Positions 13,944 to 36,511 of a DNA stretch of 37,085 nt are shown in pieces; position 1 is the first letter of the stretch, and every line of letters starts with the position of its first letter. This stretch comes from Pseudorhodobacter antarcticus. GTDB taxonomy: Bacteria; Pseudomonadota; Alphaproteobacteria; Rhodobacterales; Rhodobacteraceae. The position numbers and the translations under genes were made by a program. The notes under the pieces were generated by a model. It did no database searches. It was not told where the DNA came from and was given only the letters and a program-made list of their open reading frames with translations. The stretch is taken from the NCBI GenBank assembly GCA_945860375.1, contig CAMAQR010000036.1, positions 1 through 37,085 on the forward strand. The letters run 5' to 3'.

Positions 13944-14557
13944 CGGGCCAGAGTTATGGCTCGGGCGGGATACCACCCCTGCCAGCACAGGCGGCGCAAT
14001 GGCAGACACCGGTTGCCGACGATCAGGTCGACCGGCTGCGGGGCAAGATCAACAGTCGAGGCGAACCCAAGCTGTCGGCGCAGGCGCTGCAATGGCCGAC
14101 ACCGGCGGCGCAGAACTGGAAGGGCAGCAGCCCGGCCAGCGTGACGCGGGCCGATGGCAAAAGCTGGATGGATATCCTGCGCTATCGGGCGGAACAGGGC
14201 TTCACCCGCCCGGCCCCGGCGATCACGCCGCATGGGCTACAACCCTCGCATCACGCCCCGATCTCGCGCCCGCTGTGGGCTTCGATGATTGCATCGCATG
14301 GGGTGCCCTTGTCGCGCAGGATCTTGAAAGCCCGGACGCGGCGGCGACTGAACCCGCTGTTCGTCGGCTGGTTGATGGGCTGGCCCATCGGTCACGCGCT
14401 TTGCGCCTGCTCGGAAACGGAGTTCACCCACTGGCAGCAGCGCATGCGTGGCGCTCTCTCGCGGCTGCCCATGGCCTCGGGTCCGTGGATCTGGCGACCG
14501 GCGGACGACGCCCAGCGCCCGACGCAGATGAACCTGTTTGAAGGATTGCTGCCATGA
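13944..14557 (+). pseudogene. Phage-like methyltransferase-type gene, 3' fragment
   Basis: About 200 residues in one frame contain repeated tryptophan-proline motifs (AQWQTPVAD, LQWPTPAAQNWKG), then LNPLFVGWLMGWPIGHA and a terminal TQMNLFEGLLP. This C-terminal arrangement occurs, from memory, in phage-encoded DNA cytosine methyltransferase-type proteins of Rhodobacteraceae prophages. No catalytic domain is present, because the 5' part is lost at the junction with the broken dehydrogenase near 13943. The stop overlaps the next phage-like start (ATGA at 14554-14557), as in an intact phage operon. The family call is moderate; the truncation is clear from the fused contexts. Confidence 0.5.
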
Positions 14558-14838
14558 GCATGCAGGGACGGATCGGCCAAAACGGCAGCACCAAGGTCAA
14601 GCGCGCGCTGGGCGTGCAGGCAGTGCTGGAATGGGCCTTCCGGGTCGAGAAGGCCCAGCTGGAACTTCCCCTGCCGAAGGATGTGTCAGAGGAGGGCTTC
14701 GGTTTTGGCATGGAGTACATCTTGCTTCAGCGGGGGGCGCTGGGCTGCAAGGTGGACGGTGGCCGACACAAGATGGGCAGTTACATCCATGTGCATGCGG
14801 AGGTGGTGACCGCTACCCTTGCGGGGATGCCAGTTGCG
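14554..14838 (+). pseudogene. Phage-like hypothetical gene, 3' end lost into the flavoprotein gene
   Basis: It begins at ATG 14554 and runs about 94 residues (key pieces ALGVQAVLEWAFRVEKAQLE and GGRHKMGSYIHVHAEVV) before the sequence changes character near TLAGMPV. The frame then continues without a stop into the downstream oxidoreductase, so a naive call would fuse the two. The protein resembles a small conserved prophage gene of unknown function. The break near 14835 is probably the right edge of the phage-like insertion. Confidence 0.5.
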
Positions 14839-14865
14839 CAAGACCACCCGATGAAAGGCGCTGAT

Positions 14866-21911: not shown

Positions 21912-22703
21912 CTATTTGGTTGTTCGGTTGCGCCGCGCAGCGAAGGCCCAAACGGTGAACGCCACCAAGGTGACGACCATCAGAACCACAGCAGCAGCAG
22001 CAACGGTTGGATCGGTATTTTCGCGGATGCCGTTCCACATCCGGCGCGGCAGGGTGTAAACGCTGAATTTTGACAGAAACAACGTGACAACGATTTCATC
22101 CCACGACGAGATGAACGCGAACACAGCACCCGCCAGAATGCCGGGTTTGATGCACGGAACGATCACGCGGCGCATTGTGGTCCAGTTTGATGCCCCAAGA
22201 TTGCGCGAGGCTTGTTCCAGCCGTGGATCAAAGCCTGCCAAAGACGCAGAGACCGTGATCAGCACAAGGGGCGCAGACAAAACGGTGTGGGCAAGGATCA
22301 GGCCCACATAGCTGTCTATCAGGCCCAAAGGGACGAACAGGCGGTAGAACGCCATCGCGGCGATGATCGGCGGGATCACCAGCGGCAGCAGCAGGATCGC
22401 GCGTACCACCTCACCGGCTTTGGAGGATACCCGCCATAGCCCAATGGCGCATAGCGTGCCAATCACGGTGGCAAGCAGCGTTGACGCAATGGCGATCAGC
22501 GCGCTTTGCCAAAAGCTTGACATCCATTCCGGGCTGCTGAAAAGCTTGATGTAATATTGCAGCGAAAGCTCGTTTGTCGGGAAGGACAGAAAGCGTTTCG
22601 GGGTAAGCGATACGGGAATGGCCACCAAAGCCGGTGCCACAAGAAACACCAGCAAAGCCCAGGACAGTCCAGAATTAAGTCGTGCGGGAAGGCTGGGCCT
22701 CAT
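21912..22703 (-). CDS. Polyamine-type ABC permease (PotC-like)
   Basis: This 263-residue inner-membrane permease has about six hydrophobic segments and a PotC-type EAA loop (LEQASRNLGASNWTTMRRVIVP). It begins MRPSLPARLNSGLSW at 22703, where ATGA overlaps the stop of the PotB-like partner (22700-22703). A longer frame upstream lies inside that partner and was rejected. With the PotB-like subunit it forms the channel for the substrate delivered by the binding protein at 23617. Confidence 0.92.
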   Translation of the reverse strand: MRPSLPARLNSGLSWALLVFLVAPALVAIPVSLTPKRFLSFPTNELSLQYYIKLFSSPEWMSSFWQSALIAIASTLLATVIGTLCAIGLWRVSSKAGEVVRAILLLPLVIPPIIAAMAFYRLFVPLGLIDSYVGLILAHTVLSAPLVLITVSASLAGFDPRLEQASRNLGASNWTTMRRVIVPCIKPGILAGAVFAFISSWDEIVVTLFLSKFSVYTLPRRMWNGIRENTDPTVAAAAVVLMVVTLVAFTVWAFAARRNRTTK

Positions 22704-23551
22704 GCTTTTGCCCCCCCGAACACGGTTGAAAGCTTCATGAAGCGCGACATCACAAACAACAGCGCCAGCACACCGAACAACATCAGCGCCGCCAACATCG
22801 CAGCCGTGCCCCATTGCAGCGTGACCAACACCTGAACCGAAACATATTCGGCCACCATCAGCACTTTGCCGCCGCCCAAAACTGCAGGCACAACATAAAA
22901 CCCAAGGTTGATTATAAACACCAAAAGTGCAGCCGCAACGATGCCGGCACGGGTCAGCGGCAGATAGACACGCCAAAACGTCTGCGCACCCGTGGCCCCA
23001 AGCGAACGCGACGCCTGCACCACGCGGCCATCCATGCTTTGCATCGACGCAAGGATCGGCAGAACCGCATAAGGCACCATGTAGTGCACCATGCCGATCA
23101 ACACGCCCAACTCATTTCGCATGAAGGAAATCGGTTGCGAGATGATTCCAAGCGCCTCAAGCCCGTTGTTCACTACGCCATTGCGACCCAACAGCATCAG
23201 CCACGAAAACGCGCGCACAAGCACCGAAATCCAGAACGACATCAGCAAAAGACCCAACATTTTATTGCGCGCACCATCGGCGGCATGCACCATGGCGTAG
23301 GCAATGGAATAGCCCAGCGCGACGCTGATCGCGGTGCAGATCACGCATATACGCACTGTCGTCCAGATAATCCGACCCAAAGAGTCCGAGGTGAAAAGTT
23401 CGGTATAGTTGCCAAGCCCCGGTGTGGGTTCGCTGACACTCAGCCAAAGGATGTTCACGATCGGGCCAAGAAACAGCGCGCCCACCAACACAAGGAAGGG
23501 CAGCACAAGAATCCACCCGGTATTCAAGGCATGACGTAGCAAAGCGCTCAT
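22700..23551 (-). CDS. Polyamine-type ABC permease (PotB-like)
   Basis: This 283-residue membrane permease has a typical PotB first helix (GWILVLPFLVLVGALFLGPIV) and the EAA loop VVQASRSLGATGAQTFWRVYLP near 200. It is followed by an overlapping PotC-like gene and preceded by the binding-protein gene, with a hairpin between them (23578-23608). In E. coli such systems carry spermidine or putrescine. Homologues in proteobacteria carry diverse cations and quaternary amines, which suits the carnitine neighbourhood. Confidence 0.92.
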   Translation of the reverse strand: MSALLRHALNTGWILVLPFLVLVGALFLGPIVNILWLSVSEPTPGLGNYTELFTSDSLGRIIWTTVRICVICTAISVALGYSIAYAMVHAADGARNKMLGLLLMSFWISVLVRAFSWLMLLGRNGVVNNGLEALGIISQPISFMRNELGVLIGMVHYMVPYAVLPILASMQSMDGRVVQASRSLGATGAQTFWRVYLPLTRAGIVAAALLVFIINLGFYVVPAVLGGGKVLMVAEYVSVQVLVTLQWGTAAMLAALMLFGVLALLFVMSRFMKLSTVFGGAKA

Positions 23552-23577
23552 CTGCGGCTACCTGATTAGGAAAAGGG

Positions 23578-23608
23578 GCCCGGCAGGGCAAGTGTCACGC
23601 TGCCGGGC
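23578..23608 (-). terminator. Intercistronic hairpin between binding-protein and permease genes
   Basis: GCCCGGCAG at 23578-23586 pairs perfectly with CTGCCGGGC at 23600-23608 (9-bp stem, 13-nt loop). On the minus strand it is followed by CCCTTTTCC. It lies 8 bp after the binding-protein stop and would act as a partial terminator or RNA-stabilising hairpin. This would raise binding protein over permease, as often seen in ABC operons. Confidence 0.65.
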
Positions 23609-23616
23609 GGGAGCTA

Positions 23617-24723
23617 TCAGCTGATCGCAGCGAGGAAGGCGTTCACGGCTGCATCGGTGTTTTCGCCCCACCATGTGGGATCGTTCATCGCCACATTCGG
23701 CAGATTCGCCGCTGAAGTGATGGAATAGGGCTGATCCGCTTCGGCCAAGGCCGCGATGGCCTCGGGGTTGGTCGGGGTCATGCCAAGGCAGGCAAACAGG
23801 TCAAGTTGCGCTGGAACCGACTGTGCCGTTGCGATGAACTTCATGACCGCAGCGCCACCGGGATTGCCTTTCGGCACAATGTAGGCGCCCGGCATTGCAA
23901 TCGCCTGGTTCGTCACCAACTTGTAGCGGCCATTGGTGTCGTTTTCGATCGAGCGGCCCCGGTTTTGCCAGACCATGCCCATGGAAACTTCGCCGTTCAC
24001 AATCATCTGCTGGGCTTCTGCACCCGACGCCCAGTAAATCGTGTCGGCCTTGATCGCTTTGATCTTGGCCAGCGCCCGATCCATATCCAACGGATAAAGC
24101 GCATCTTTTGCAATGCCATCTGCCATCAAAGCGGCTTCAAGAGATCCATTGGCCCATTTGTAAAGTGAACGGGTGCCGGGGAATTTGGTGGTGTCGAAGA
24201 AATCTGCCCAATTGCTTGGCGCGCCATCCGGGTAGGCTTGGGTGTCATACATGAAAGCATAGCCGTAAAGGATGATCGACACCCCAAACTCCAACGCATA
24301 ACCGTCAATGGTCTTGGCCTTATCGACCACGGTGTAGTCGATTGGCTCCAGATGGCCGGTTTTGCCCAAGGCGACGGCATCAAACAGATCGCCATCGCAG
24401 ACATCGGCGGTGACATTGCCACTGTCGACCATTTCCTTGATCTTGCCCTGAAGCGGGCCGGATGTGTCAAACTTCAGCGGGATACCGGTTTCTGCGGTGA
24501 AAGCGTTGCCGATGGCGCTGGTGTGGCATTCTTCCGATTGCCCGCCCCAATTCCACATCACGATCTCACCGGCGGCGGCTTCGGCGCGGCCTGCCAAGAC
24601 CGAAGCGCTGGCGAAACCCGCCATCCCGCAAAGGGCCAGAAAACTGCGCCGCCCCATCTTGCCCGCCTGAAATGCCTGAGCGCCTTGTAGCAGCGATTCA
24701 CGCATAAACTGTTTATCTTGCAT
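23617..24723 (-). CDS. PotD/PotF-like periplasmic binding protein with Tat signal
   Basis: This 368-residue solute-binding protein has a twin-arginine signal (GRRSFLALCGMAGFASA, about residues 24-40, cleavage after AEA) and a PotD-type start of the mature domain (IVMWNWGGQ). It captures the substrate in the periplasm for the PotABC-like transporter. The cargo could be a quaternary amine such as carnitine or gamma-butyrobetaine, given the neighbouring catabolic genes; polyamine remains possible. The ATG at 24723 has AGGAGG about 9 bp upstream. The 79-bp gap to the ATPase gene holds no clear promoter. Confidence 0.9.
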   Translation of the reverse strand: MQDKQFMRESLLQGAQAFQAGKMGRRSFLALCGMAGFASASVLAGRAEAAAGEIVMWNWGGQSEECHTSAIGNAFTAETGIPLKFDTSGPLQGKIKEMVDSGNVTADVCDGDLFDAVALGKTGHLEPIDYTVVDKAKTIDGYALEFGVSIILYGYAFMYDTQAYPDGAPSNWADFFDTTKFPGTRSLYKWANGSLEAALMADGIAKDALYPLDMDRALAKIKAIKADTIYWASGAEAQQMIVNGEVSMGMVWQNRGRSIENDTNGRYKLVTNQAIAMPGAYIVPKGNPGGAAVMKFIATAQSVPAQLDLFACLGMTPTNPEAIAALAEADQPYSITSAANLPNVAMNDPTWWGENTDAAVNAFLAAIS

Positions 24724-24802
24724 GGTTTATTCCTCCTGTTGACTGGGCCAGAACGACCCATATTTCATGGCACCGGGTTGATCCCGGCTTTGGCTTATTC
24801 CG

Positions 24803-25810
24803 TCAGATTGGGTCGCGCAGCCGCACGGCAGCATTGTCCGCCCAAGTCAGATCGACGGGGCTGTGTACAGCCACCGGCGCGCCACCGCGCCAGGCATCCA
24901 CATCCACTTCGATCAGACCCATGCCTGGCACTTCGACCTGGTATTTCAGCACCGACCCAAAATAGGTCACGGATTGCACGCGCCCGCTTACCTTGTTGGC
25001 GCCCTGCCCGTTGCCCGCAGTGGCAAGGTCGATCTTTTCCGGGCGCAGCGCATAAACCACGCCGTCACGTTGCAAAAAGTTGCTTTTGCCAAGAAAACTC
25101 GCCGCAAACCGTGTGCTTGGCCGCTGATACAGTTCTGACGGTGTGCCAATTTGTTCGATGTGGCCGTTGCGCATGATCACGATGCGATCCGACATCGACA
25201 GCGCCTCTTCCTGATCATGCGTCACATAGACAAACGTCGTGCCGATGCGCTGATGGATGTCTTTCAACTGCGCCTGCACTTCGGTACGCAGGTTCTTGTC
25301 CAACGCCCCCAGGGGTTCATCCAGCAACAAAACTGGCGGCGCAAAGCACAACGCCCGCGCCAACGCCACACGCTGCTGTTGACCGCCCGAAAGCTCTTTT
25401 GGCAGACGATGCGCGAATTCGCCCAAGCGGACCAATTCCATCATCTCGGCCACACGGGCGTCAATCTCGGCCTTTGGGCGTTTGCGCACTGACAGCGGAT
25501 AGGCGATGTTGTCGCGCACTGTCATGTGCGGAAACAGCGCATAGCCTTGAAACACCATGCCAAAGTTGCGCTTTTCCGCCGGCATCTCGGCTATGGAGCG
25601 GCCGTCCAGCAAGATGTCGCCCGAGGTGATGTCCTGAAACCCGGCCATCATCATCAAAAGCGTGGTCTTGCCAGAACCGGACGGCCCCAGCAGCGTTAGA
25701 AACTCACCGCTCTGAATTTCCAGATCAACATTTTCCACGGCGACAAAGGCACCATAATGCTTGGTCAGCGACCTCAACTGCAGACAGCCACTTTTGCCGG
25801 GCTCTGCCAT
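24803..25810 (-). CDS. Polyamine-type ABC importer ATPase (PotA-like)
   Basis: This 335-residue ATPase has Walker A GPSGSGKT at 42-49, the signature LSGGQ at 140-144, Walker B VLLLDE at 160-165 and the switch His in YVTHDQEEA. A C-terminal TOBE-type regulatory domain begins at ALRPEKIDLA. It starts 2 bp after the BKACE stop with no strong ribosome site of its own, so it is translationally coupled to BKACE. That coupling links import directly to carnitine-type breakdown. Confidence 0.93.
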   Translation of the reverse strand: MAEPGKSGCLQLRSLTKHYGAFVAVENVDLEIQSGEFLTLLGPSGSGKTTLLMMMAGFQDITSGDILLDGRSIAEMPAEKRNFGMVFQGYALFPHMTVRDNIAYPLSVRKRPKAEIDARVAEMMELVRLGEFAHRLPKELSGGQQQRVALARALCFAPPVLLLDEPLGALDKNLRTEVQAQLKDIHQRIGTTFVYVTHDQEEALSMSDRIVIMRNGHIEQIGTPSELYQRPSTRFAASFLGKSNFLQRDGVVYALRPEKIDLATAGNGQGANKVSGRVQSVTYFGSVLKYQVEVPGMGLIEVDVDAWRGGAPVAVHSPVDLTWADNAAVRLRDPI

Positions 25811-25812: not shown

Positions 25813-26703
25813 TCAGGCGACCGCGCCGCGAAGCTTCAACTTGTTGCGCGCCTCTTGCGGAGTCAGCGCACGCGCGCCCATTCGTTCGACGATGCCGATC
25901 ACCCGTTCGACCAACTGGGCATTGGTTGCCAAAACCCCGCGATCAAGGAACAGATTGTCTTCCAGCCCCACCCGGACGTTGCCACCCATCGCAACCGCCG
26001 CAGCGGCCATTGGCATTTGCATGCGACTGATGCCGAAACTTGCCCAGCTTGCCTCGGGGGGCAGATGCTCTTTCATGGCCTTCATTGTTTCGACGGTTTG
26101 ATCGGCGCCCCAAGGAATTCCCAGACACAGTTGGAACATCGGCGGATCAGTCAGCAGGCCTTCGGACATCATCTGTCTGGCAAAGCGGATGTGGCCCAGT
26201 TCAAAAACCTCAAGCTCTGGCTTTACGCCCCATTCCTTTGTCAGCGCCGCCATTCGGCGCAAAATCGGGGGGGTGGAAATGTAAATGCTGTTGTCATTGC
26301 CAAAGTTCAGCGTGCCGCAATCCAGCGAGCAGATTTCCGGCAGGCAATCCTTCACATGGGCCAGCCGTTCATCAGGCCCGATCATATCGGTTCCAGGCCC
26401 AGGCATCGCCCAATTCAGCGGATCTGGGGTCCAATCCCCACCCATCCCCGCGGTCAGGTTGATGACAACATCGGTGCCGCTGTCGCGGATGCGCTCAACC
26501 ACTTCGCGGAACAAAGCGGGGTCGCGGGAGCCCTTTCCGGTTTCAGGATCACGGACATGAATGTGGGCAATGGCGGCGCCGGCTTTCGCGGCCTCTATGG
26601 CTTCGCGCGCAATTTCTGCGGGTGTTACAGGCACATGCGGGCTCTTGCCCGCGGTATCTCCTGCCCCGGTTACAGCACAGGTCACCACTACTTCGAAGTT
26701 CAT
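25813..26703 (-). CDS. BKACE-family beta-keto acid cleavage enzyme (candidate dehydrocarnitine:acetyl-CoA cleavage enzyme)
   Basis: This 296-residue protein of the DUF849/BKACE family has the Zn-binding [16 protein letters not shown] stretch (about residues 45-60), the [10 protein letters not shown] segment and the VGLEDNLFL motif. BKACE enzymes condense a beta-keto acid with acetyl-CoA to yield acetoacetate and a new acyl-CoA. CdhC of carnitine clusters turns 3-dehydrocarnitine into betainyl-CoA. The neighbours (CdhR-like regulator divergent, L-carnitine dehydrogenase beyond it) support that role. The ATG at 26703 has AAGGAG about 7 bp upstream. It heads the eight-gene minus-strand operon. 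Confidence 0.9.
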
Positions 26704-26781
26704 TTCGATCTCCTTCTTTCGCCTGATCTTGTGCGGAAGATTTCGATTTCTTTTCATTTATTCGCCATATATCATGTATCG

Positions 26782-27906
26782 ATGTCGAAAAATCGCACCA
26801 GTAATTCGGATGATGCCGCAGAGTCCCGTCCTGCGATGGATCTGACAGAAGGCGCCGTCTCGAACGTGACGTTCCTGATCGTACCGCGCTTTAACATGTC
26901 GACTTTGATGACCATGATCGAGCCGATGCGTATCGCGAACTATCTGTCGCCACTGCCAATTTATGGCTGGGAAATCGTGTCGTTTGACGGCGAGGTGATC
27001 GTGGCGAGTAATGGGTTTTCCTTGCCCGCACATGCGCCAACAAACCGCAATCGGCGCGGCGAGGTGATCTTCGTCATGGGCAGCTGGGGCGCGGAAAGCT
27101 ATCGGAATACCACGGTATTTTCATGGATCCGCAGGCAAGCCCGTGAGGGCGCGCGGATTTGCGCGGTGGAGCTTGGCACCTATCTGGTGGCGCGATCCGG
27201 GCTCTTGTCGGGGCGTAACGTTACAACGCATTGGTCCTACGGGCCGGGATTTCAGGAGCAATTCCCCGACATCACATTTGTCGAACAAATATACACCGTT
27301 GACGATGGGGTGATGACCTGCGGCGGCGGGATGGCAGGGGTGGACATGATGCTGCGCCTGATTGGTGAAGCACATGGAGAAAGCCTAATCGGTGAGATCG
27401 CGGACCAACTCATGCATCACCCCGTGCGTCCAGCGACCGCTCCGCAACGCCGGACCATGGGACGCAGCACCGATACGATGGCGCCAATGGTGCGCGAGGC
27501 AATTGCCCTGATTGAGCGTAACATCACGGAACCCCTAAGCGTTCCGGATATTGCCGGTGCTTTGGGGGTATCTCAGCGCCAGATGGAGCGGCAATTCAAG
27601 CAAACGATTGGCTGTACCGTTGTGCAGTTTGGCTTACTTTTGCGGTTGCAGCACGCACGGGTTTTGCTGATCTCGACCACACTCAGCGTGCGTGACATCG
27701 CGACAGCATCAGGGTTTAACACGCTGTCGCATTTCGCGTTTTCGTTCGGAAAATGCTTTGGGCGCAGGCCCAGCGAATACCGTCAAGCTTGGCCGGAAAA
27801 AGACAGCGCCCCCAGTTGGCCGGGGACGCTGTCGAAGTTTTTGCTGGCATTGCAGAACCGGGGAACGACGAAACCGATACAGGTTCTACGTAAAAGCCGG
27901 ATTTAG
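26782..27906 (+). CDS. cdhR: CdhR-like AraC regulator with DJ-1/PfpI (GATase1-like) sensor domain
   Basis: This 374-residue regulator has an N-terminal DJ-1/PfpI-like domain (VTFLIVPRFNMSTLMTMIEP, later CAVELGTYLVARSGLLSG with the nucleophile elbow Cys). A C-terminal AraC-type double helix-turn-helix follows (LSVPDIAGALGVSQRQMERQ and LSVRDIATASGFNTLSHF). GbdR and CdhR, which sense betaine and carnitine, have this architecture. It is divergent from BKACE and convergent, by a 4-bp overlap, with the L-carnitine dehydrogenase gene, so the call CdhR-like is well supported. The ATG at 26782 has no clear ribosome site; the next in-frame ATG (26836) has none either. Confidence 0.85.
   Translation: MSKNRTSNSDDAAESRPAMDLTEGAVSNVTFLIVPRFNMSTLMTMIEPMRIANYLSPLPIYGWEIVSFDGEVIVASNGFSLPAHAPTNRNRRGEVIFVMGSWGAESYRNTTVFSWIRRQAREGARICAVELGTYLVARSGLLSGRNVTTHWSYGPGFQEQFPDITFVEQIYTVDDGVMTCGGGMAGVDMMLRLIGEAHGESLIGEIADQLMHHPVRPATAPQRRTMGRSTDTMAPMVREAIALIERNITEPLSVPDIAGALGVSQRQMERQFKQTIGCTVVQFGLLLRLQHARVLLISTTLSVRDIATASGFNTLSHFAFSFGKCFGRRPSEYRQAWPEKDSAPSWPGTLSKFLLALQNRGTTKPIQVLRKSRI
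26784..26798 (+). promoter_or_regulatory. Shared motif, site D (regulator/BKACE divergent region)
   Basis: GTCGAAAAATCGCAC overlaps the first codons of the CdhR-like gene, about 80 bp upstream of BKACE. It matches the core GNCGAAAAA(A)NCGC found before the CdhA, LLM and RidA/ALDH genes. It is the weakest of the four copies (five instead of six A residues). Confidence 0.4.
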
Positions 27907-28847
27907 CGGCGGGCTTCGCGGATCGCGTTTAGAACGGCGACGATTTCACGGTCACGCGTGGCCGCCAAATCCTCGAAATGCCGTCCAGCGGCGATTTCGT
28001 TGCAGCCGTCCACCATGCGATCTCGCAGGTCTTGGGTTAGCTCCGGCGCTTCCAGCCGCGTCCACGGCCATTTCAGGGCCGGGCCGAATTGGTCCAGATT
28101 GGTCGCCATGCCGCCTTCACCACAAGCAACATGAAAGGCCATGCATTGCCCCTGCACCGCCATACGCGTTGCGGGGCCGTTCATCAGCGCGTTGTCAATG
28201 TCGGCGGGTGTTGCTTCGCCGTTGGCGACCATGTGCAGCGCTTCACGCCAGAGGGCTTCTTGCAGGCGAGTGGCGACAAATCCCGGAATTTCCTTTTTCA
28301 TTGCCAGCGGCGCTTTTCCCGCAATCTGGTAGAACTCTACTGCCCAAGCGACAGCGGCAGGGTCGGTGCCTTTGCCGCCAACCACTTCAACCAATGGCAA
28401 AAGATAGGGTGGGTTGAAGGGGTGGCCAATAACGGTGCGCTGCGGGGTCATGCAGTTGGCCTGAATCTGGCTCATCGTCAGGCCCGAGGTGGACGAGGCA
28501 ATGACGCAAGTTTCAGGCGCGAGTTCGCCCAGACGTTGGTAAAGCGCCTGCTTGATGTCCAGCCGTTCGGGCGCGCTTTCCTGAATGAACTGTGCTTCCC
28601 GCACCGCATCGGCCAGATCGGTGGTGATGCGCAACCGATCTCGAGATGCGCCGGGGGCCAGACCCAAAGCCATCAGGCTGATCCAGCCGGTATTGATCAC
28701 CGACATCAGCGCCGGCACTTCGGCGTCAGAATGGATATAGGCGGTAACATCATAGCCGCGCGCCAGAAAATGGGCGGCCCAACCGCCACCGATGGGTCCA
28801 GCGCCGATTGTTGTAATGCGGGTGACGGATTTGGGATCGGGATACAT
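27903..28847 (-). CDS. cdhA: L-carnitine dehydrogenase (3-hydroxyacyl-CoA dehydrogenase family)
   Basis: This 314-residue NAD-dependent enzyme has the Rossmann motif GAGPIGGGW (15-23), ASSTSGLTMSQIQ at about 117-129 and the catalytic His in IGHPFNPPYLLPLVEV (His142). GHPFNPPYLLPLVEVVGG is characteristic of carnitine dehydrogenases, not of the fatty-acid FadB type. It oxidises L-carnitine to 3-dehydrocarnitine. The start at 28847 (MYPDPKSVTRI) matches the family; a longer frame to 28946 has no support. No CdhB-type thioesterase gene is linked to it here. Its stop overlaps the convergent regulator stop by 4 bp. Confidence 0.9.
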   Translation of the reverse strand: MYPDPKSVTRITTIGAGPIGGGWAAHFLARGYDVTAYIHSDAEVPALMSVINTGWISLMALGLAPGASRDRLRITTDLADAVREAQFIQESAPERLDIKQALYQRLGELAPETCVIASSTSGLTMSQIQANCMTPQRTVIGHPFNPPYLLPLVEVVGGKGTDPAAVAWAVEFYQIAGKAPLAMKKEIPGFVATRLQEALWREALHMVANGEATPADIDNALMNGPATRMAVQGQCMAFHVACGEGGMATNLDQFGPALKWPWTRLEAPELTQDLRDRMVDGCNEIAAGRHFEDLAATRDREIVAVLNAIREARR

Positions 28848-28875
28848 CGTGCGGACTTTCAGGTAAAAGGGAGGA

Positions 28876-28890
28876 GCGATTTTTTCGCCC
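28876..28890 (-). promoter_or_regulatory. Shared motif, site C (upstream of L-carnitine dehydrogenase)
   Basis: On the minus strand, GGGCGAAAAAATCGC lies 29-43 bp upstream of the cdhA start. It shares the core GGCGAAAAAANCGC with the sites near 30850 and 32540. The location fits an activator or repressor operator for cdhA. The 61-bp gap between CaiD and CdhA is otherwise empty. Confidence 0.5.
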
Positions 28891-28908
28891 AAAAGGCGGA
28901 TTGTGGCT

Positions 28909-29709
28909 TTAGCGGCCCTTGAAGACGGGATCGCGTTTTTCGACAAACGCCGCGATGCCTTCGGCAGAATCTTCGGATTTCAGCATGGCGCGGTAGGTTG
29001 GCAGATCGCCTGTGCGCATGTGGTTGAAGGCCACTTCCAAAGGCATGGCCTGAATGGCGCGTTCAACTTCCTTGACGGTTTGCATCGCAAGCGGCGCGGA
29101 TCCCGCAATCTGATCCGCCCAAGCGCGGGCGGTTTCCATCAGGCTTTCTTTCGGCACCACCTTGTTCACAAGGCCGTAATGCGCCGCCTCTGCCGCAGGC
29201 ATCCGACGCCCCAGCAGCAGCATTTCCATTGCGATGTTGCGCGGAATCAGGCGCGGCAGGCGTTGCAGCGCGCCCGCGTCCGGCACAATCCCCAAGGGCA
29301 TTTCCGGCAGGCCAAACTGCACATGATCTGCGGCGATGATCAGATCGCAGGACATGGCAATTTCAAACCCGCCACCAATTGCCATGCCGTTCAAGGCGCA
29401 GATCACCGGCTTGTTCATTTGCCAGTTTTCCGTCAATCCGCCAAAGCCGCCGATGCCATAATCAGCGGTTTCCCACCAGTTATCCAACGTCATCTCACCT
29501 GCATTGAGCGCCTTAAGATCCCATCCTGCGGAAAAAATGCGATCGCCTTCCGCCGTCAGAATCCCGACCCAAAGTTCAGGATCGTCGCGCAGCAAGGCAA
29601 AGGCGCGGCCCATATCCTGGCTCATCGCGACGTCAATCGCGTTCACTTTTGGCTTGTTCAGCTTTATTTCCAGCACCCGGCCGCGGCGGGTAACTTCAAC
29701 GTGGCTCAT
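28909..29709 (-). CDS. caiD: Carnitinyl-CoA dehydratase/crotonobetainyl-CoA hydratase (CaiD-like)
   Basis: This 266-residue crotonase-fold enzyme is close to E. coli CaiD along its length: IFSAGWDLKAL (about 58-68), GFGGLTENWQMNKPV, AIGGGFEIAMSCD (about 111-122) and LPEMPLGIVPDAG. Both catalytic glutamates are present (in GGGFE and LPE), and the tail EKRDPVFKGR is nearly identical to CaiD. It interconverts crotonobetainyl-CoA and L-carnitinyl-CoA. The ATG at 29709 has AAGGAAG upstream. It lies 25 bp after the LLM monooxygenase stop and probably shares its transcript. Confidence 0.92.
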   Translation of the reverse strand: MSHVEVTRRGRVLEIKLNKPKVNAIDVAMSQDMGRAFALLRDDPELWVGILTAEGDRIFSAGWDLKALNAGEMTLDNWWETADYGIGGFGGLTENWQMNKPVICALNGMAIGGGFEIAMSCDLIIAADHVQFGLPEMPLGIVPDAGALQRLPRLIPRNIAMEMLLLGRRMPAAEAAHYGLVNKVVPKESLMETARAWADQIAGSAPLAMQTVKEVERAIQAMPLEVAFNHMRTGDLPTYRAMLKSEDSAEGIAAFVEKRDPVFKGR

Positions 29710-29734: not shown

Positions 29735-30769
29735 TCAAGCGAAAGCCGGGATGACTTCCTTGCAAAACAGCTCTAACGAGCGTTTTTGCTCGGCAAGTCC
29801 GAGGCCAAGGCTGGCGTAATAGATGAATTCATCCACGCCCAACGCCTGATAGAGTTTCAATTTCGCAATCACCTCATCCGGGGTGCCGAACATCAGATTG
29901 CGGTGCAGCATGTCAGGATCATATTCAGCGCGGTTGCCAAGTTGATCGAACGGGATCGCTTTCGGGAAACCGTTTTCGACATCACCCATGTTCTTGAACA
30001 GATTCTCAAACTGTGAAAGCTGGCGCTGTGCAGCGCGAATTGGCACCATCCAGTCCTCTTTACTGTCATAGACCGCGGTGTGGCGCATCATCGCCATGAT
30101 CGGGCGTTTGGAGCCAGGATTGTTGGCAATGGCCTCGTCCATGCGGCCCATGTAGATTTCCGCTTCGGACATATCGCGGGTCAGGGGCCAAGACATGATG
30201 TTGCAGCCATTCTTGACCGCATAATCATAAGTGATCGGGGCGCGGGCGGCGATCCAAACCGGAACTTCAGCCTGCAACGGTTTGGGGCAAGACGTAGAGG
30301 TGGGGAAGCTCCAGAACTCGCCGGTGTGATCATAATCGCCCTTCCAGAGCGCACGCACGGCGGGCAGCATTTCTTGCATGTAGCGCCACGCGTCGGATTG
30401 TTTCAGCCCTGGGTGCATGCGGTCAAACTCGCGCTGATATGCGCCTGAACCGATGCCAAACTCCAGCCGCCCGCCCGAGATCAGGTCAACGAAAGCCGCC
30501 TCTCCCGCCACTTTGATCGGATGCCAATAAGCTGCGGCGACGCAGGCGGTGCCAAGGCGGATGCGGTCGGTGTGGCCCGCCCACCACGCCAGGATGGAAA
30601 ACGGGTTCGGCGCGATGGTCATTTCCAGTGCGTGATGTTCAGCGGCCCAAGCAATGTTGAAGCCACCCAGTTCGGCCATCTGAACCATGTCAATCGTGTG
30701 GCGCGCGACGTCCTTCATATCCAGACTTTCGTCCATCCGTTCCAAGTTAATGGCGAGTTGAAACTTCAT
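29735..30769 (-). CDS. LLM class flavin-dependent monooxygenase (luciferase-like)
   Basis: This 344-residue luciferase-fold protein begins MKFQLAINLERM and has AEHHALEMTIAPNPFSILAW and RIRLGTACVAAAYWHPIKVA. It also carries GGRLEFGIGSGAYQREFDRM, all hallmarks of group C flavin-dependent monooxygenases. Such enzymes use reduced FMN from a separate flavin reductase and O2. A candidate reductase is fused to the CoA-transferase at 33801-35894. The substrate is unknown; oxygenation of the acyl or amine part of a carnitine-like compound is a possibility. The ATG at 30769 has GGAGG 6 bp upstream, against a four-codon-longer alternative. Confidence 0.9.
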   Translation of the reverse strand: MKFQLAINLERMDESLDMKDVARHTIDMVQMAELGGFNIAWAAEHHALEMTIAPNPFSILAWWAGHTDRIRLGTACVAAAYWHPIKVAGEAAFVDLISGGRLEFGIGSGAYQREFDRMHPGLKQSDAWRYMQEMLPAVRALWKGDYDHTGEFWSFPTSTSCPKPLQAEVPVWIAARAPITYDYAVKNGCNIMSWPLTRDMSEAEIYMGRMDEAIANNPGSKRPIMAMMRHTAVYDSKEDWMVPIRAAQRQLSQFENLFKNMGDVENGFPKAIPFDQLGNRAEYDPDMLHRNLMFGTPDEVIAKLKLYQALGVDEFIYYASLGLGLAEQKRSLELFCKEVIPAFA

Positions 30770-30947: not shown

Positions 30948-32429
30948 TCAGCGCATGACGAAAGGATTGGCCATCGGTTCGGTTGACGTATTGACCCAAA
31001 CCGTCTTGGGCCGGGTGTAGTCATACATCGCCTGAAACCCGCTTTCCCGGCCATAACCGGAACCTTTGACCCCGCCAAATTCCGCGATGGGGGACACCAC
31101 GCGGTAGGTGTTGATCCAGACAATGCCCGACCTGATCGCTTTGGCCATCCGCATTTGCCGCGCGCCATCGCGGGTGAAAATACCTGCGGCAAGCCCGTGT
31201 TTCGTATCATTGGCCAGCGCAATAACCTCTGCCTCGGTCTTGAACCGCAGAACGGAGAGCACCGGGCCAAACAGTTCGGTGTCAACGATGCGCAAATCTT
31301 GACGCGGACACTCGATGATGGTCGGTTCATAATAGGTGCCGCCCAAACCGTCGGGTTGCTTGCCGCCGCATAGAACGCGGCCACCTTCGGTTTGCGCATG
31401 TGCCACCTCACGTTCAATCGTGGCCAGTTGGCCCTGCGTGCACAGCGGGCCCATTTGGGTGTCTTCGTCCAAAGGATCGCCGATGCGGATTTGTCGGGCA
31501 AGGCCGACCATCTTTTCAAGGAACGCATCGGCAATGTCTTCATGCAGATAGAGCCGCGATCCTGCCACACAGCTTTGCCCGGTGGCGCCGAATATACCTG
31601 CAATCGAGCCGTTCACCGCACTGTCGATATCGGCGTCTTCAAACACGATGAACGGGGATTTTCCGCCCAGTTCCAACGACACCTGTGCAAAGTTTTCGCA
31701 TGAATTGGTCAGCACAGCGCGCCCCGCGCCCGCGCCGCCGGTAAATGAAATCCGCGCCACCAAAGGGTGCGATGTCAACACCCGACCGCAGGGTTCGCCG
31801 TGGCCCGACACAATGTTCACCACGCCCGGCGGAAAGCCCGCAGCTTCGATCAATTCGCCAAATTCCAGCATCGCGGCAGAGGCGTGTTCAGACGCCTTCA
31901 ACACCACGGTATTGCCGGCCGCCAGCGCAGGGCCAATTTTCACCGCCACAAGGAAAAGCTGTGAATTCCATGGCACGATGGCGGCGACGACACCCAAGGG
32001 TTCGCGTCGGGTGAACACAAACAAATCCGGCTTATCGATTGGCAGCGTTTCACCGGAAATCTTGTCGGCACAACCGGCATAAAAGTGGAAAAACTCGGCA
32101 ATGTATTTCGCCTGCCAGCGGGTTTCTTTCAGCATCTTGCCGGTATCGATGGTTTCGATGCGGCCCAGACTTTCGGATTTCTCAGCCAGCAAATCCCCGA
32201 GTTTACGCAGGCAGCGGCCCCGCGCCGATGGGCTCATCTCGGCCCAGGGGCCAGAGGTGAAGGCGCGGTCAGCCGCCCGCACCGCACGGTCGACATCTTC
32301 GGCGGTTGCCTCTGGCACACGGCACCAAACTTCGCCGGTGGTTGGATTGGTACTTTGGAACAGAGCGCCATCCGACGCGCCGACCCAAACGCCATCAATC
32401 AACATTTGATAGTCCTTGATTGCAGTCAC
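30948..32429 (-). CDS. NAD(P)-dependent aldehyde dehydrogenase
   Basis: This 493-residue aldehyde dehydrogenase of standard length has the catalytic Cys in GQSCVAGSRLY (about residue 287), the general-base Glu in LELGGKSPFIVFEDAD and the cofactor segment PWNSQLFLVAVKIGPALAAG. It would oxidise an aldehyde formed by the neighbouring monooxygenase, for instance malic semialdehyde or betaine aldehyde; this is inference. The start is GTG at 32429 because GGAGG lies 7 bp upstream, and it gives a normal N-terminus (TAIKDYQMLIDG). The frame is open to 32603 but the extension is not family-like. It is divergent from RidA. Confidence 0.92.
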   Translation of the reverse strand: MTAIKDYQMLIDGVWVGASDGALFQSTNPTTGEVWCRVPEATAEDVDRAVRAADRAFTSGPWAEMSPSARGRCLRKLGDLLAEKSESLGRIETIDTGKMLKETRWQAKYIAEFFHFYAGCADKISGETLPIDKPDLFVFTRREPLGVVAAIVPWNSQLFLVAVKIGPALAAGNTVVLKASEHASAAMLEFGELIEAAGFPPGVVNIVSGHGEPCGRVLTSHPLVARISFTGGAGAGRAVLTNSCENFAQVSLELGGKSPFIVFEDADIDSAVNGSIAGIFGATGQSCVAGSRLYLHEDIADAFLEKMVGLARQIRIGDPLDEDTQMGPLCTQGQLATIEREVAHAQTEGGRVLCGGKQPDGLGGTYYEPTIIECPRQDLRIVDTELFGPVLSVLRFKTEAEVIALANDTKHGLAAGIFTRDGARQMRMAKAIRSGIVWINTYRVVSPIAEFGGVKGSGYGRESGFQAMYDYTRPKTVWVNTSTEPMANPFVMR

Positions 32430-32523
32430 CCCGCAGCCCTCCATAAAGCCTGTCTGATAGTGCCAGCATGACGTTGCCAGCCTGAGGTTGATAGTGAGTG
32501 CGACAGGCCGAAGAATGTGCGGA

Positions 32524-32555
32524 TTTTCGCCACGGCGTGGCGAAAAAAGCGCAAC
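32524..32555. promoter_or_regulatory. 23-bp perfect palindrome with shared motif, site A (ALDH/RidA divergent promoter)
   Basis: TTTTCGCCACG, a single central G, and CGTGGCGAAAA form a perfect 23-bp palindrome at 32524-32546. Its right half continues as GTGGCGAAAAAAGCGCAAC (32537-32555), the same sequence found before LLM. It lies 49-80 bp upstream of RidA and about 95-125 bp upstream of the aldehyde dehydrogenase. It is well placed to control both divergent transcripts, and it is the strongest operator candidate in the window. Confidence 0.6.
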
Positions 32556-32603
32556 TGGTGACGGTTGGGCGGTGTTTGATGACACCTCAAGGGGAGAACT
32601 CAT

Positions 32604-33011
32604 GTGCCAAATTGTAAAACCGTGATCGGTGAACCCCTGGTGATTGCCGGGCGAACGCTGTCGTTGTCACGTGCCATCCGCGCGGGTGATCACGTCTATC
32701 TAACCGGACAAATCCCAATGAAAAACGGGGCTCCGATGACCGATGGCAGCATTGAAGATCAAACCCGTGCAGTGCTGGATGCCGTCACAGAGACGTTGGC
32801 TTTGGCCGCATGCAAGCGATCAGACGTCGTCAAGGCGATGATCTGGCTGCGCGACCGCGCTGATTTTGCTGGTTTTAACGCTGTCTACGGTGAATACTTC
32901 CCCTTTGACCCGCCCGCACGATCCGCCGTTGTCAGTGACCTACTGGTCGATTGCAGGGTCGAAATAGAGGTGGTGGCATGGCGGCCGCTTCAAGGCGAGG
33001 GAAGCCGATGA
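32604..33011 (+). CDS. RidA/YjgF/RutC-family protein
   Basis: This 135-residue RidA fold protein has RAGDHVYLTGQIPMKNG, the Ala-Arg-Ser element PPARSAVVSDLL and the terminal VEIEVVAW. RidA proteins hydrolyse reactive enamines/imines, and the RutC member serves the Rut pyrimidine pathway. The GTG at 32604 starts the family-like frame, with AAGGGGAG about 10 bp upstream. An ATG two bases earlier is in another frame and stops after 7 codons. Its stop overlaps the hydrolase start (ATGA at 33008-33011), so they are co-translated. It probably detoxifies or converts an aminoacrylate-like or imine product of the pathway. Confidence 0.88.
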   Translation: MPNCKTVIGEPLVIAGRTLSLSRAIRAGDHVYLTGQIPMKNGAPMTDGSIEDQTRAVLDAVTETLALAACKRSDVVKAMIWLRDRADFAGFNAVYGEYFPFDPPARSAVVSDLLVDCRVEIEVVAWRPLQGEGSR

Positions 33012-33808
33012 TGCCTGCACCCGATGGCACCGCATACGACACCTACGGCCCTGCGGACGCGCCCTTGGTCGTGCTTGTTCATGGGCTTGGCCTGACCCGC
33101 GCGGTTTGGGACCTGACCATCCCTGATCTAGCCAAGAACGTTCGGGTGCTGGCCTATGACATTTTTGGTCACGGGCAAACGCCCCCGCCTCTGGACCCAC
33201 CCAGCCTTGCCCTGATGGCCAGACAGCTTGCTGACTTGCTCGATCATTGTGGTGCGAAAGCTGCAACTGTGGTTGGGTTTTCGTTAGGGGGCATGATCGC
33301 GCGGCGCTTTGCGCAGGATTTTCCCGATCGCACGCAAGGGCTTGTCATCATGCACTCGCCCCACCGCCGGACACCCGAGGCGCAGGCGGCCATTCTGGCG
33401 CGCGTCGCGCAGGCCAGCGATGCGGGACCTGCTTCGACGGTTGAAGCTGCATTGGCCCGATGGTTCACCGATGATTTCCGCTTTGCCAACCCAAGCGTCA
33501 TGAACCTTGTGCGCGGCTGGGTGCTTGCGAACGATCCCAAAACCTATCCGTCCTTTTACAGTATTCTGGCCGATGGGATTGATGAAATCGTGGCCCCACA
33601 GCCACCCATCAGTTGCCCGACGCTTGTGATGACGGCCGACCAGGATTATGGCAATGGCCCCGAGATGAGTACTGCCATCGCCGCCGAGATCGCCGGGGCA
33701 GAGACCATCATCCTGCCGGGCCTGCGCCACATGGCCTTGATGGAAGACCCGGCCCGCACCAATGCGGCTTTGGGGCGTTTTTTGCAAAAGGCGGTTCTCC
33801 GTGGTTGA
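33008..33808 (+). CDS. Alpha/beta hydrolase
   Basis: This 266-residue alpha/beta hydrolase has the oxyanion-side motif LVHGLGLTRAVWD, the nucleophile elbow GFSLGG (Ser92), an acid near TADQDYG (211-213) and the base His in LRHMALMED (241). It would hydrolyse an ester, amide or thioester, or act like RutD on a peroxy- or carbamoyl intermediate. Its start is set by the ATGA overlap with RidA. The second ATG at 33011 is equally possible. The stop lies 8 bp into the next gene, so RidA, hydrolase and the CoA-transferase fusion form one coupled operon. Confidence 0.9.
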   Translation: MMPAPDGTAYDTYGPADAPLVVLVHGLGLTRAVWDLTIPDLAKNVRVLAYDIFGHGQTPPPLDPPSLALMARQLADLLDHCGAKAATVVGFSLGGMIARRFAQDFPDRTQGLVIMHSPHRRTPEAQAAILARVAQASDAGPASTVEAALARWFTDDFRFANPSVMNLVRGWVLANDPKTYPSFYSILADGIDEIVAPQPPISCPTLVMTADQDYGNGPEMSTAIAAEIAGAETIILPGLRHMALMEDPARTNAALGRFLQKAVLRG

Positions 33809-35894
33809 GGCAAAAGGCATTCTTTCGGGCCTGCGCGTGCTGGATCTGAGCCGAATGTTGTCTGGCCCCTATTGCACGATGATGCTGGCCGACAATGGCG
33901 CCGAAGTGATCAAAATCGAAGATCGCGGCGGCGATACCAGCCGCAGCAACGGCCCCTTCCGCGACGATGATCCGAACCACGATTGGGCAGGCTATTTTGT
34001 CAGCCTGAACCGGTCGAAGAAAAGTGTCGTGCTGGATTTGAAATCCGAGTCTGGCAAATCAGATCTTTTGGCGCTGGTTGCGACTGCGGATGTGCTGGTG
34101 GAAAATTATCGCCCCGGCGTGATGGAGCGGTTGGGCCTGTCCTATGAGCGGTTGGCAGAAATCAACCCCCGGCTGGTTTATGCGGCGATCCGCGGATTTG
34201 GCGACCCGCGCTCGGGGAAAAGCCCCTATGCGGATTGGCCCTCTTATGACGTGGTCGCGCAGGCGATGGGGGGGCTTATTTCCCTGACCGGACCAGATTC
34301 TACTACGCCAACCAAGGTAGGCCCCGGTATCGGCGATGTGTTTGCAGGCGCGTTGATGTCTTTTGGAATCCTTGCCGCCCTGCGGCAGGTCGAAGCCACG
34401 GGGCGCGGGCAATTCATTGATATTGCAATGTATGACGCCATGATCAGCCTGTGCGAGCGGGCGATATATCAGCATGATTTCGACGGCTCGATCCCCGGTC
34501 CAGAGGGCAACGGCCACCCGCTGCTGGCCCCATTTGGGGTATTTGCGGCCAAAGATGGCCATGTGGCTTTGGGGGTTGTTGACGATACGTTCTGGCAGGC
34601 TTTGGCGCAGGCTATGGAGCAACCCGGCTGGGCTACGGACCCACGCTTTGCCACGCGGGCGGCGCGGCGCGTCCACGCGTCGGTGCTTAATCCTTTGGTG
34701 GCCGAGTGGACTGCGCGCCACTCCAAGGTCGAGCTTGCGCAGAAACTGGGTGGCAAGGTGCCGTTTGGACCAGTGAACACCGTGGCTGATATTTTTGCCG
34801 ATCCGCATGTTGCAGCACGCGGTATGATTGCTACAATCCCTCACGCAGATGCGGGATCACGGCCTTGGCGGGTGGCGGCCAACCCGCTGCACTTTTCGAC
34901 CAACCCCACGCCTGAACCGCAAGCCCCTGCCCGCTTGGGCGCGCAGATGGCGCAGGACTTTCTGCCACCCGCCGTGGCCGATATTGACCCCCGCCGCCTG
35001 CGCGATGCCTTTGGCAGCTTTGCAACCGGGGTTACCGTGCTCACGGCCCGGCAAGCCGATGGTACGCCACGAGGGTTCACCGCGAATTCTTTCAGTTCTG
35101 TTTCCCTCGACCCGCCGCTCTTGCTGGTTTGCCTTGCAAAAACGGCCCACAGTTGCGCGACGTTCATAGCGGCCGACCACTTTGGCGTGAATGTTCTTGG
35201 CAAGGATCAGCAGGCTGTTTCATCGCTTTTTGCCTCTCGCGCCACCGACAAGTTTGAGCAGTGCAATTGGCATGCAGGCGCTGGCAACGTGCCACTGATT
35301 GAAGGGACACTGGCGCAGTTTGCCTGCCGTCAGGAACGTCTTGTCGATGCGGGGGATCACATCGTGCTTATTGGCAGAGTAATCCAATTCGCAACTGGAG
35401 AGAGCGCGCCCTTGGGCTATTTTCGGGGCCGTTATTTCTCGGTTGATGCCGATACACAGCTGGTGCAGGCCGTCGTTTCGGGGTCTGGGGCGCACATTGG
35501 CGCGGTGCTGATGCAAGATGGTGCCGTCCTTATGACGGTCGCCAACGATGGCGCGCTGTCGTTGCCCTTGTCCGCACAGCCGAGCCCAAGCATTGACAAG
35601 CTGCGGGACGCTCTGGCGGCACGTGGCCTGCACCCCGAGGTTGATTTTCTATATGCTGTGTTTGAAGATCGGATCGCCAAGACCCATGGTATTTATTACC
35701 ACGGTTCGGTGCGCGGCGTGGCACCACAAGGAATGGAATTCTACGCCCTGCCAGATATCCCTTGGGGATCAATGAAGAATCCTGCTGAACGTAGCATGCT
35801 GCAACGCTACTGCGAAGAATCCCGCGATGGCGCGTTCGGTATTTATCAGGGCAACGAAACTGAAGGAAAAGTGCGCCGCCTCCGCGGAGCCTGA
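33801..35894 (+). CDS. CaiB/BaiF-type CoA-transferase fused to a flavin reductase domain
   Basis: This 697-residue protein starts at GTG 33801, overlapping the hydrolase stop. Residues about 5-385 form a family III CoA-transferase: GLRVLDLSRMLSGPYCTMMLADNGAEVIKIE, later NRSKKSVVLDLK, and the catalytic Asp179 in GIGDVFAG. The tail PARLGAQMAQDFLP is where such proteins end. Residues about 396-550 form an FMN-binding flavin reductase: RLRDAFGSFATGVTVLTA, then FTANSFSSVSLDPPLLLVCL, and GDHIVLIGRV. Residues 551-697 are a further domain, possibly Nudix-like (GAVLMQDGAVLMTV). No stop or frame change lies between them. It likely moves CoA between carnitine-type acids while its reductase part feeds FMNH2 to the LLM enzyme. 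The first two domains are clear; the third is not identified. Confidence 0.9.
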   Translation: MVEAKGILSGLRVLDLSRMLSGPYCTMMLADNGAEVIKIEDRGGDTSRSNGPFRDDDPNHDWAGYFVSLNRSKKSVVLDLKSESGKSDLLALVATADVLVENYRPGVMERLGLSYERLAEINPRLVYAAIRGFGDPRSGKSPYADWPSYDVVAQAMGGLISLTGPDSTTPTKVGPGIGDVFAGALMSFGILAALRQVEATGRGQFIDIAMYDAMISLCERAIYQHDFDGSIPGPEGNGHPLLAPFGVFAAKDGHVALGVVDDTFWQALAQAMEQPGWATDPRFATRAARRVHASVLNPLVAEWTARHSKVELAQKLGGKVPFGPVNTVADIFADPHVAARGMIATIPHADAGSRPWRVAANPLHFSTNPTPEPQAPARLGAQMAQDFLPPAVADIDPRRLRDAFGSFATGVTVLTARQADGTPRGFTANSFSSVSLDPPLLLVCLAKTAHSCATFIAADHFGVNVLGKDQQAVSSLFASRATDKFEQCNWHAGAGNVPLIEGTLAQFACRQERLVDAGDHIVLIGRVIQFATGESAPLGYFRGRYFSVDADTQLVQAVVSGSGAHIGAVLMQDGAVLMTVANDGALSLPLSAQPSPSIDKLRDALAARGLHPEVDFLYAVFEDRIAKTHGIYYHGSVRGVAPQGMEFYALPDIPWGSMKNPAERSMLQRYCEESRDGAFGIYQGNETEGKVRRLRGA

Positions 35895-35908
35895 AAAAGG
35901 AGATGCAG

Positions 35909-36511
35909 ATGTTCCCTGAACTACGCAAAGTCGTGACCTATGATGAAGTGATCTACCGAGAAGGCGTGCGCGCAGCCGAGCCGCCACTTCGCTTGATCGG
36001 CGTGGCGGCCGTGGTCAAGAACCCGTGGCACGGCCGCGGCTATGTTGAAGACCTGTCGCCTGAAATTAACCGTATTGCCCCGCTTTTGGGGAAAACGTTG
36101 ACTGATATGCTAATCGGTTTGGCAGGATCTGGCGATGGGATAGAGGCCTATGGCAAGGCGGCAATGGCAGGCACGGATTGCGAACTGGAACACGGCTCGG
36201 CGCTGATCCACACGTTGCGGTTTGGCAATTTCTATCGCGAAGCGGTTGGGGCCAAGACCTATCTTGGCTTCACCAACAGCCGTGGCCCAGCCAATACCCA
36301 GATCCAAATTCCGCTGATGGATAAGCATGATAGCGGACGGCGGTCGCATTATCTGACGGTGCAATTTTCCATCCCGGATGCACCCGGCCATGATGAACTG
36401 GTGGCAGCGCTCGGGGCCTCCACCGGGGGGCGGCCGCATCATCGGATTGGCGACCGCTATGCAGATCTGAAATCTATCGGCAGAGACATCGAAAACCCTG
36501 CGGGCGTCTGA
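35909..36511 (+). CDS. DUF1185 family protein (amino acid synthesis family)
   Basis: This 200-residue protein of Pfam family PF06684 (DUF1185) has EVIYREGVRAAEPPLRLIGVAAVVKNPWHG, GYVEDLSPEINRIAPLLG, then YGKAAMAGTDCELEHGSALIHT and a GGRPHHRIGDRYADL tail. The family has a chorismate-mutase-like fold from solved structures, with a suggested role in amino-acid metabolism but no proven reaction. It often neighbours LLM monooxygenases and flavin reductases. Two ATGs are close: 35903 sits directly on the GGAG, so 35909, with AAAGGAG about 6 bp upstream, is the better start. It is the last intact gene of the plus-strand operon. Confidence 0.9.
   Translation: MFPELRKVVTYDEVIYREGVRAAEPPLRLIGVAAVVKNPWHGRGYVEDLSPEINRIAPLLGKTLTDMLIGLAGSGDGIEAYGKAAMAGTDCELEHGSALIHTLRFGNFYREAVGAKTYLGFTNSRGPANTQIQIPLMDKHDSGRRSHYLTVQFSIPDAPGHDELVAALGASTGGRPHHRIGDRYADLKSIGRDIENPAGV

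Follow-up and report, generated by a model that had tools for sequence, protein, structure and literature searches.

A CoA-transferase fused in frame to a flavin reductase and a Nudix-fold domain in a conserved Rhodobacterales gene cluster

The window analyzed here is a stretch of 37,085 nucleotides from Pseudorhodobacter antarcticus (GCA_945860375.1, contig CAMAQR010000036.1, positions 1 to 37,085). Near its right end lies one open reading frame (ORF) in which a CaiB/BaiF coenzyme A (CoA)-transferase is joined to a flavin reductase and to a third domain having the Nudix fold. The fusion and its parts are as follows.

33801..35894, + strand: fusion ORF, CaiB/BaiF CoA-transferase, flavin reductase and Nudix-fold domain, 697 amino acids, GTG start
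33822..34931, + strand: CoA-transferase family III domain, residues 8-377 (Pfam PF02515; PDB relatives 4ed9, 10uh and 4hl6)
34335..34337, + strand: codon of Asp179 within GIGDVFAG
34932..35009, + strand: linker from CoA-transferase to reductase, nearly constant in length
35010..35444, + strand: flavin reductase domain, residues 404-548 (Flavin_Reduct)
35484..35864, + strand: domain of Nudix fold lacking the Nudix box, residues about 562-688

The frame is uninterrupted from the GTG at 33801 to the stop codon ending at 35894, as a sequence-only reading of this DNA had stated. An alternative ATG at 33762 would give 710 residues, but it lies inside the hydrolase gene upstream; for this reason, and because the closest fusion homologues have 696-701 residues, the GTG start is preferred. 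The order of CoA-transferase, flavin reductase and third domain given in that reading is borne out by Pfam domains and fold matches. The CoA_transf_3 model matches residues 8-377 with an E-value of 3e-124 and 415.2 bits (cut-off 23.3), which places the domain in family III, and the Flavin_Reduct model (PF01613) matches residues 404-548 with an E-value of 4e-39, above the Pfam cut-off, the flavin reductase fold being present in the same residues. Asp179, which had been pointed out in GIGDVFAG and which is presumably the catalytic Asp of the CoA-transferase family, is kept in 65/65 aligned rows (64 fused genome loci and the window). In the reductase part, Gly425, Ser430, Phe431, Lys447, and Asp519 are kept in all 65 rows and His520 in 64. 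The linker region measures 24-30 residues between fixed points across the 64 fused loci. Structural matches were taken domain by domain, because the CoA-transferase part of the whole-length structure model has low confidence in places (mean predicted local distance difference test score 72.7) and whole-length fits were poor (root-mean-square deviation 12-15 Å).

The third domain had been called Nudix-like, and this holds for its fold and not for its motif. The Pfam search gave no match in residues 549-697, and the fold of the Nudix superfamily is present at residues about 562-688. The Nudix box (G-x5-E-x7-RE-U-x-EE-x-G-U) occurs in none of 53 copies, by strict or loose pattern, and no Pfam Nudix model matched any of the four third domains submitted. 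An active Nudix hydrolase is therefore rejected for this domain. The C-terminal Nudix-fold domain of MutY is likewise non-catalytic, and by analogy with it and with the additional C-terminal part of the C1 reductase described below, the third domain is likely a sensor or spacer.

The closest known protein is SMa0793 of Sinorhizobium meliloti (PDB 3RH7), a flavin reductase with the same C-terminal Nudix-fold domain, which matches residues 395-692 (E 5e-63). It is about 38% identical and has no CoA-transferase domain, and the pSymA stretch that holds its gene (L010) gave no CaiD or HCDH match within the 40 kb read. The reductase component C1 of p-hydroxyphenylacetate 3-hydroxylase (PDB 5ZC2/5ZYR) is 44-45% identical in the reductase domain and also has an extra C-terminal part, but this part did not align to the window protein; we take it to be MarR-like and effector-responsive. 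On the other side of the fusion, family III CoA-transferases such as the succinyl-CoA:mesaconate enzyme, YfdE (4HL6), and SUGCT (9BR6) share the family, the catalytic Asp and the best NCBIfam score, yet YfdE and SUGCT were solved as stand-alone proteins. The best NCBIfam model is that of succinyl-CoA:mesaconate CoA-transferase (NF041294, 433.6 bits against a cut-off of 700); since the score is below the equivalog cut-off, the substrate need not be that of the mesaconate enzyme. Carnitine, suggested earlier as substrate, does not fit: the model of L-carnitine CoA-transferase CaiB (NF002914) scored 125.4 bits against an equivalog cut-off of 413, and identity as a carnitine CoA-transferase is unsupported.

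The fusion is real and lineage-wide, and its proposed function is plausible. Among the best 120 of 7210 matches, all 120 homologues carry both Pfam domains (60-98% identity, 97-100% coverage), and ten bear the JGI label 'CaiB-like acyl-CoA transferase/flavin reductase'. In a scan of one genome per species, in which 80 loci were kept, CoA-transferase and reductase share one frame in 64, with the third domain in 52 and without it in 12. One of the 12 is at a contig end (L056), one has a frame break (L057), and the other ten have no third-domain match in the locus. The break in L057, a metagenome-assembled genome (MAG), lies near position 11698 between the reductase and the Nudix-fold part and may reflect either an error or decay. 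By record title, fused loci belong to Rhodobacterales (57), Alphaproteobacteria without order (4), and Hyphomicrobiales (1), and 2 are unplaced; Rhodobacterales with the fusion cluster include Cypionkella, Tabrizicola, Ruegeria, and Planktomarina. The nearest one is a Cypionkella MAG (L012; 98% identical). The same in-frame junction is found on plasmid pW43B (L001), and 1 of 72,556 plasmid records covers at least 80% of the fusion. A sequencing or assembly artefact uniting two genes deserves practically no credence, as the identical junction recurs in the 64 genome loci, in pW43B, and in the 120 listed homologues, and a sequencing-error junction is rejected. The sequence-only reading also knew of no described enzyme with this architecture. 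None of the papers listed describes the three-domain protein, as judged by titles and abstract beginnings with subscription papers mostly outside the scope, but the fusion is common, already labelled by JGI, and its reductase-Nudix half is solved (3RH7). The architecture is apparently new among those described, and is built from known families rather than being a new kind of system.

The fusion marks a conserved gene cluster in Rhodobacterales, the genes of which suggest breakdown of a betaine-like compound. The neighbors in the window are listed below, with their frequency in 50 loci, namely those of the 64 fused loci whose flanks exceed 9 kb on the upstream and 0.9 kb on the downstream side. 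For the acyl-CoA dehydrogenase, the ligase, the transporter binding protein, and the regulator, the counts do not distinguish absence from a position beyond the 10-kb flank.

35903..36511, + strand: DUF1185/AA_synth protein (PF06684; 3byq), near the fusion in 43/50 loci
32951..33808, + strand: alpha/beta hydrolase, with an 8-base overlap into the fusion ORF, start coordinate approximate, 47/50 loci
32604..33011, + strand: RidA-family protein (PF01042), 41/50 loci
30948..32603, - strand: aldehyde dehydrogenase (ALDH; PF00171), listed start probably too far upstream, 47/50 loci
29735..30769, - strand: luciferase-like (LLM) flavin-dependent monooxygenase (PF00296), proposed acceptor of reduced flavin, 44/50 loci
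28909..29709, - strand: CaiD-like enoyl-CoA hydratase (NF002936, 313.7 bits, cut-off 500), 43/50 loci
27903..28946, - strand: 3-hydroxyacyl-CoA/L-carnitine dehydrogenase-like protein (HCDH; NF005471, 308.6 bits, cut-off 414), 43/50 loci
26770..27906, + strand: AraC regulator of GlxA/GbdR type (GbdR 234.8 bits, cut-off 480), start approximate, 38/50 loci
25813..26757, - strand: beta-keto acid cleavage enzyme (BKACE; PF05853), 43/50 loci
21912..25810, - strand: ATP-binding cassette (ABC) transporter of polyamine/gamma-aminobutyric acid (GABA) type, with two permeases, binding protein and ATPase, binding protein in 27/50 flanks
20745..21902, - strand: acyl-CoA dehydrogenase, within flank in 14/50 loci
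18643..20841, - strand: acyl-CoA ligase of the acetate--CoA ligase (ATP-grasp) type, within flank in 14/50 loci
17525..18691, - strand: serine hydrolase of beta-lactamase fold

The transporter binding protein scores best against polyamine binder and GABA-sensor proteins; this likeness hints at a trimethyl-GABA-like solute, and gamma-butyrobetaine, for example, would fit.

The history of the fusion can be traced in part. Nine loci (6 Hyphomicrobiales, 2 other Alphaproteobacteria, 1 unplaced) have a stand-alone CoA-transferase within a related cluster, and in 7 of these it takes the position of the fusion, flanked by the alpha/beta hydrolase and DUF1185. In L073 the sequence ATGA holds both the stop codon of the CoA-transferase and the start codon of a separate flavin reductase, the contig ending before any third domain. 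The CoA-transferase tree, which leaves out two broken frames (L068 and L082), unites the 9 unfused rows in one group, with a support of 95 in the Shimodaira-Hasegawa-like approximate likelihood ratio test (SH-aLRT), and the fused label needs 2 changes over all 82 rows. Without the long-branch L083 and 14 near-copies, a branch with an SH-aLRT of 89 (not starred) sets the 50 fused rows apart. These trees are compatible with a single fusion of two overlapping neighbor genes and do not prove it.

The tree of the reductase-Nudix unit (54 rows, picked by hand) is less simple, as the CoA-transferase-fused label needs 6 changes, 2 of them forced by starred branches. L073 stands outside the fused group (branch 95). 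Inside it fall L116, with a reductase joined to the hydrolase (its group of three has a support of 99), and the hydrolase-joined L115, which groups beside L114 (93); L117, L118, and Aminobacter L006 are placed there less firmly. L114 has a gutted CoA-transferase (8649-10499) still in frame with an intact-looking reductase-Nudix unit, L115 and L116 have a hydrolase-reductase fusion instead and no CoA-transferase, and in L006 the CoA-transferase is missing beside the reductase. Our reading of this history is that gene neighbors underwent one fusion, after which the CoA-transferase was lost in some lines and the Nudix part in others, so that the architecture records neighboring genes, their fusion and later loss of outer domains. 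One loss of the CoA-transferase is directly seen in L114; the remaining losses rest on the tree. The reductase as an always-kept core, whether free of the alpha/beta hydrolase or of CaiB, was also considered, and is weakened by genome G187, in which the CoA-transferase stands alone and no match to the reductase was obtained. None of the parts is essential, given that some relatives lack the CoA-transferase, others the Nudix part, and one genome the reductase, each through loss.

These losses bear on what the fusion does. Neighboring genes may have fused without functional coupling, the reductase serving the LLM and the CoA-transferase another step or pathway, with only their ratio fixed by the fusion; this account is possible, if rather doubtful. 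It would explain that the reductase-Nudix unit is also fused to an alpha/beta hydrolase, both in paralogous modules (L008, L111/L125, L122) and in L115 and L116, and that the gutted L114 and the hydrolase-fused L115 and L116 lie among CoA-transferase-fused rows in the reductase tree. Against it, the fusion is kept in 64/80 loci with a linker of near-constant length and an invariant Asp179, and both halves are therefore apparently under selection in most such lineages. A functional coupling of the two activities by the fusion, as proposed earlier, is unproven, since some relatives have lost the CoA-transferase part.

Co-occurrence was surveyed in 295 genomes of one family, that of G014, which was chosen for carrying the fusion; the best 3 to 8 candidates were scored per genome from E-value-limited lists, and absences are accordingly soft. 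The LLM is matched at E 1e-140 or better in 27 genomes, in 16 of them with at least 65% identity. CaiD (at E 1e-105 or better) and HCDH (at 1e-100 or better) are both confined to one set of 12 genomes, all of which have the LLM; the distance between CaiD and the LLM is at most 40 bases in 11 of them and 5.7 kb in one. The full fusion is found in 8 of these 12 and in 0 of the other 283 (Fisher p 4e-13, not corrected for kinship). Of the remaining four, G156 has a hydrolase-reductase fusion, G254 a gutted form, G239 a reductase-Nudix protein on its own, and G187 the lone CoA-transferase. Fifteen genomes were chosen in which the LLM was not near or the CoA-transferase unfused, with two for comparison, and 14 hold an LLM orthologue 69-98% identical; the LLM adjoins CaiD and HCDH in 8/10 LLM loci fetched. 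The link to LLM and CaiD proposed from the window thus holds for all 8 full-fusion genomes of the survey and fails for the genome of L025, where the fusion is present without an LLM match.

In Rhizobiales-type genomes the cluster is split, the LLM staying with CaiD and HCDH (5 loci), and the CoA-transferase with ALDH, RidA, hydrolase, acyl-CoA dehydrogenase, and ligase (6 loci). Two unrelated pathways lying side by side are disfavored, because these groupings keep the gene sets together and because CaiD and HCDH occur in the same 12/295 genomes with the LLM.

The somewhat favored reading is that of a bifunctional catabolic enzyme, formed by fusion of two overlapping neighbor genes, in which the reductase would supply the LLM with reduced flavin and the CoA-transferase would recycle CoA in the same pathway. 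We infer all the catalytic activities, the pairing with the LLM, the direction in which CoA moves, and the role of the Nudix-fold domain. Flavin supply is the best-supported step, suggested by family knowledge, the cluster, and co-occurrence: the reductase would use NAD(P)H to reduce flavin and pass it to the LLM encoded in this cluster. The CoA-transferase would move CoA from a pathway thioester to the incoming carboxylic acid. Its donor would most likely be the 3-hydroxyacyl-CoA made by the CaiD-like hydratase, and the exchange would, in CaiB-like manner, free a hydroxy acid on which HCDH and BKACE could then act. The Nudix-fold domain would most likely be a non-catalytic ligand-sensing or structural part tuning the reductase. 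A betaine-like or N-methylated acid is the probable substrate of the pathway. In most lines selection appears to maintain the CoA-transferase, which is found together with CaiD, HCDH, acyl-CoA dehydrogenase, and ligase.

Several findings weigh against a bifunctional enzyme. CaiD, HCDH, and the regulator all score below their NCBIfam cut-offs, ten fused loci lack the Nudix part, and the CoA-transferase is unfused in the 9 sister-group loci and dispensable in relatives such as L114, L115, L116, and L006. The lone CoA-transferase of G187 and the LLM-free genome of L025 add to these. Pairing of reductase and LLM is also imperfect. The LLM is present without a reductase match covering the third domain in G206, G036, and G178, a reductase-Nudix protein is present without an LLM at the limit used in G293 and G019, and G069 has the LLM with a hydrolase-reductase fusion and neither CaiD nor HCDH at the limits used.

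Alternatively, the LLM, reductase, ALDH, and hydrolase may perform a ring cleavage of the trigonelline type, with the CoA-transferase activating the resulting dicarboxylate as succinyl-CoA:mesaconate CoA-transferase does. The genes tgnA-D for trigonelline degradation, whose functions were reportedly assigned by Perchat and colleagues in 2018, are of the same LLM, flavin reductase, ALDH, and hydrolase types, a likeness known from gene types and JGI automatic labels. The same gene types occur unfused in the S. meliloti pSymA stretch that holds SMa0793 (L010, an LLM/ALDH/hydrolase/DUF1185/ABC cluster resembling the window), in Leisingera (L007), in Agrobacterium (L009), and in the near twin of the window (L123). 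Among 120 listed LLM orthologues, 22 have JGI names, 8 being 'trigonelline monooxygenase, oxygenase component' and 14 'SsuD-like'; three of the fusion homologues are labelled by JGI as hydrolase of the trigonelline pathway (best 120 of 7210 matches), and the best CoA-transferase model is the succinyl-CoA:mesaconate enzyme. Even so, trigonelline-type cleavage is unlikely here. The window cluster, unlike tgnA-D, is tied to the CoA-pathway genes CaiD, HCDH, BKACE, and CaiB; the fusion-type LLM is the one sitting with CaiD and HCDH. Moreover, the near twin, the genome of L012, has a second, unfused module of the trigonelline type (L123), in the order DUF1185, hydrolase, reductase/Nudix, LLM, ALDH, with the LLM 40% and the reductase 43% identical, and because of this paralogous module the fusion-type LLM probably acts on a substrate of its own. 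The use of trigonelline by Ruegeria pomeroyi DSS-3, as given in PMC8269262, was not taken as support, the fusion record L044 being from another strain and DSS-3 being absent among the 80 loci.

A bolder extension of the bifunctional reading, put forward tentatively and thought improbable, is that the genes of the cluster specify an aerobic route, so far undescribed, for a betaine-like acid, combining CoA-thioester chemistry with LLM oxygenation, in which the fusion serves as a substrate-sensing hub gating flavin. The ligase, acyl-CoA dehydrogenase, CaiD, and CaiB would carry out the CoA-thioester steps, and the pseudo-Nudix and CoA-transferase domains would sense the substrate or its CoA ester, so that flavin would be reduced only with substrate bound. 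A flavin reductase bearing a box-less Nudix-fold domain is, in this respect, a candidate for substrate-gated flavin supply.

Several side observations may be mentioned. Relatives of the serine hydrolase at 17525-18691 adjoin LLM-CaiD-HCDH in 5 Rhizobiales-type loci (L096-L099, L101), and this hydrolase is perhaps a thioesterase or lactonase of the pathway. The part of the window at 330-16872 encodes a Dpp-type ABC transporter, an S-Me-THD/hydantoinase pair, an enolase-superfamily protein, an old yellow enzyme (OYE)/FAD oxidoreductase, and an MttB-family methyltransferase (9770-11452), and looks like a betaine/methylamine island. In L071 the LLM, CoA-transferase, DUF1185, and ALDH lie beside the large subunit of a diol/glycerol dehydratase. 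On a plasmid of the distant bacterium Peribacillus (L002), genes for a CoA-transferase, an only distantly related flavin reductase, and LLM proteins are close to each other and unfused.

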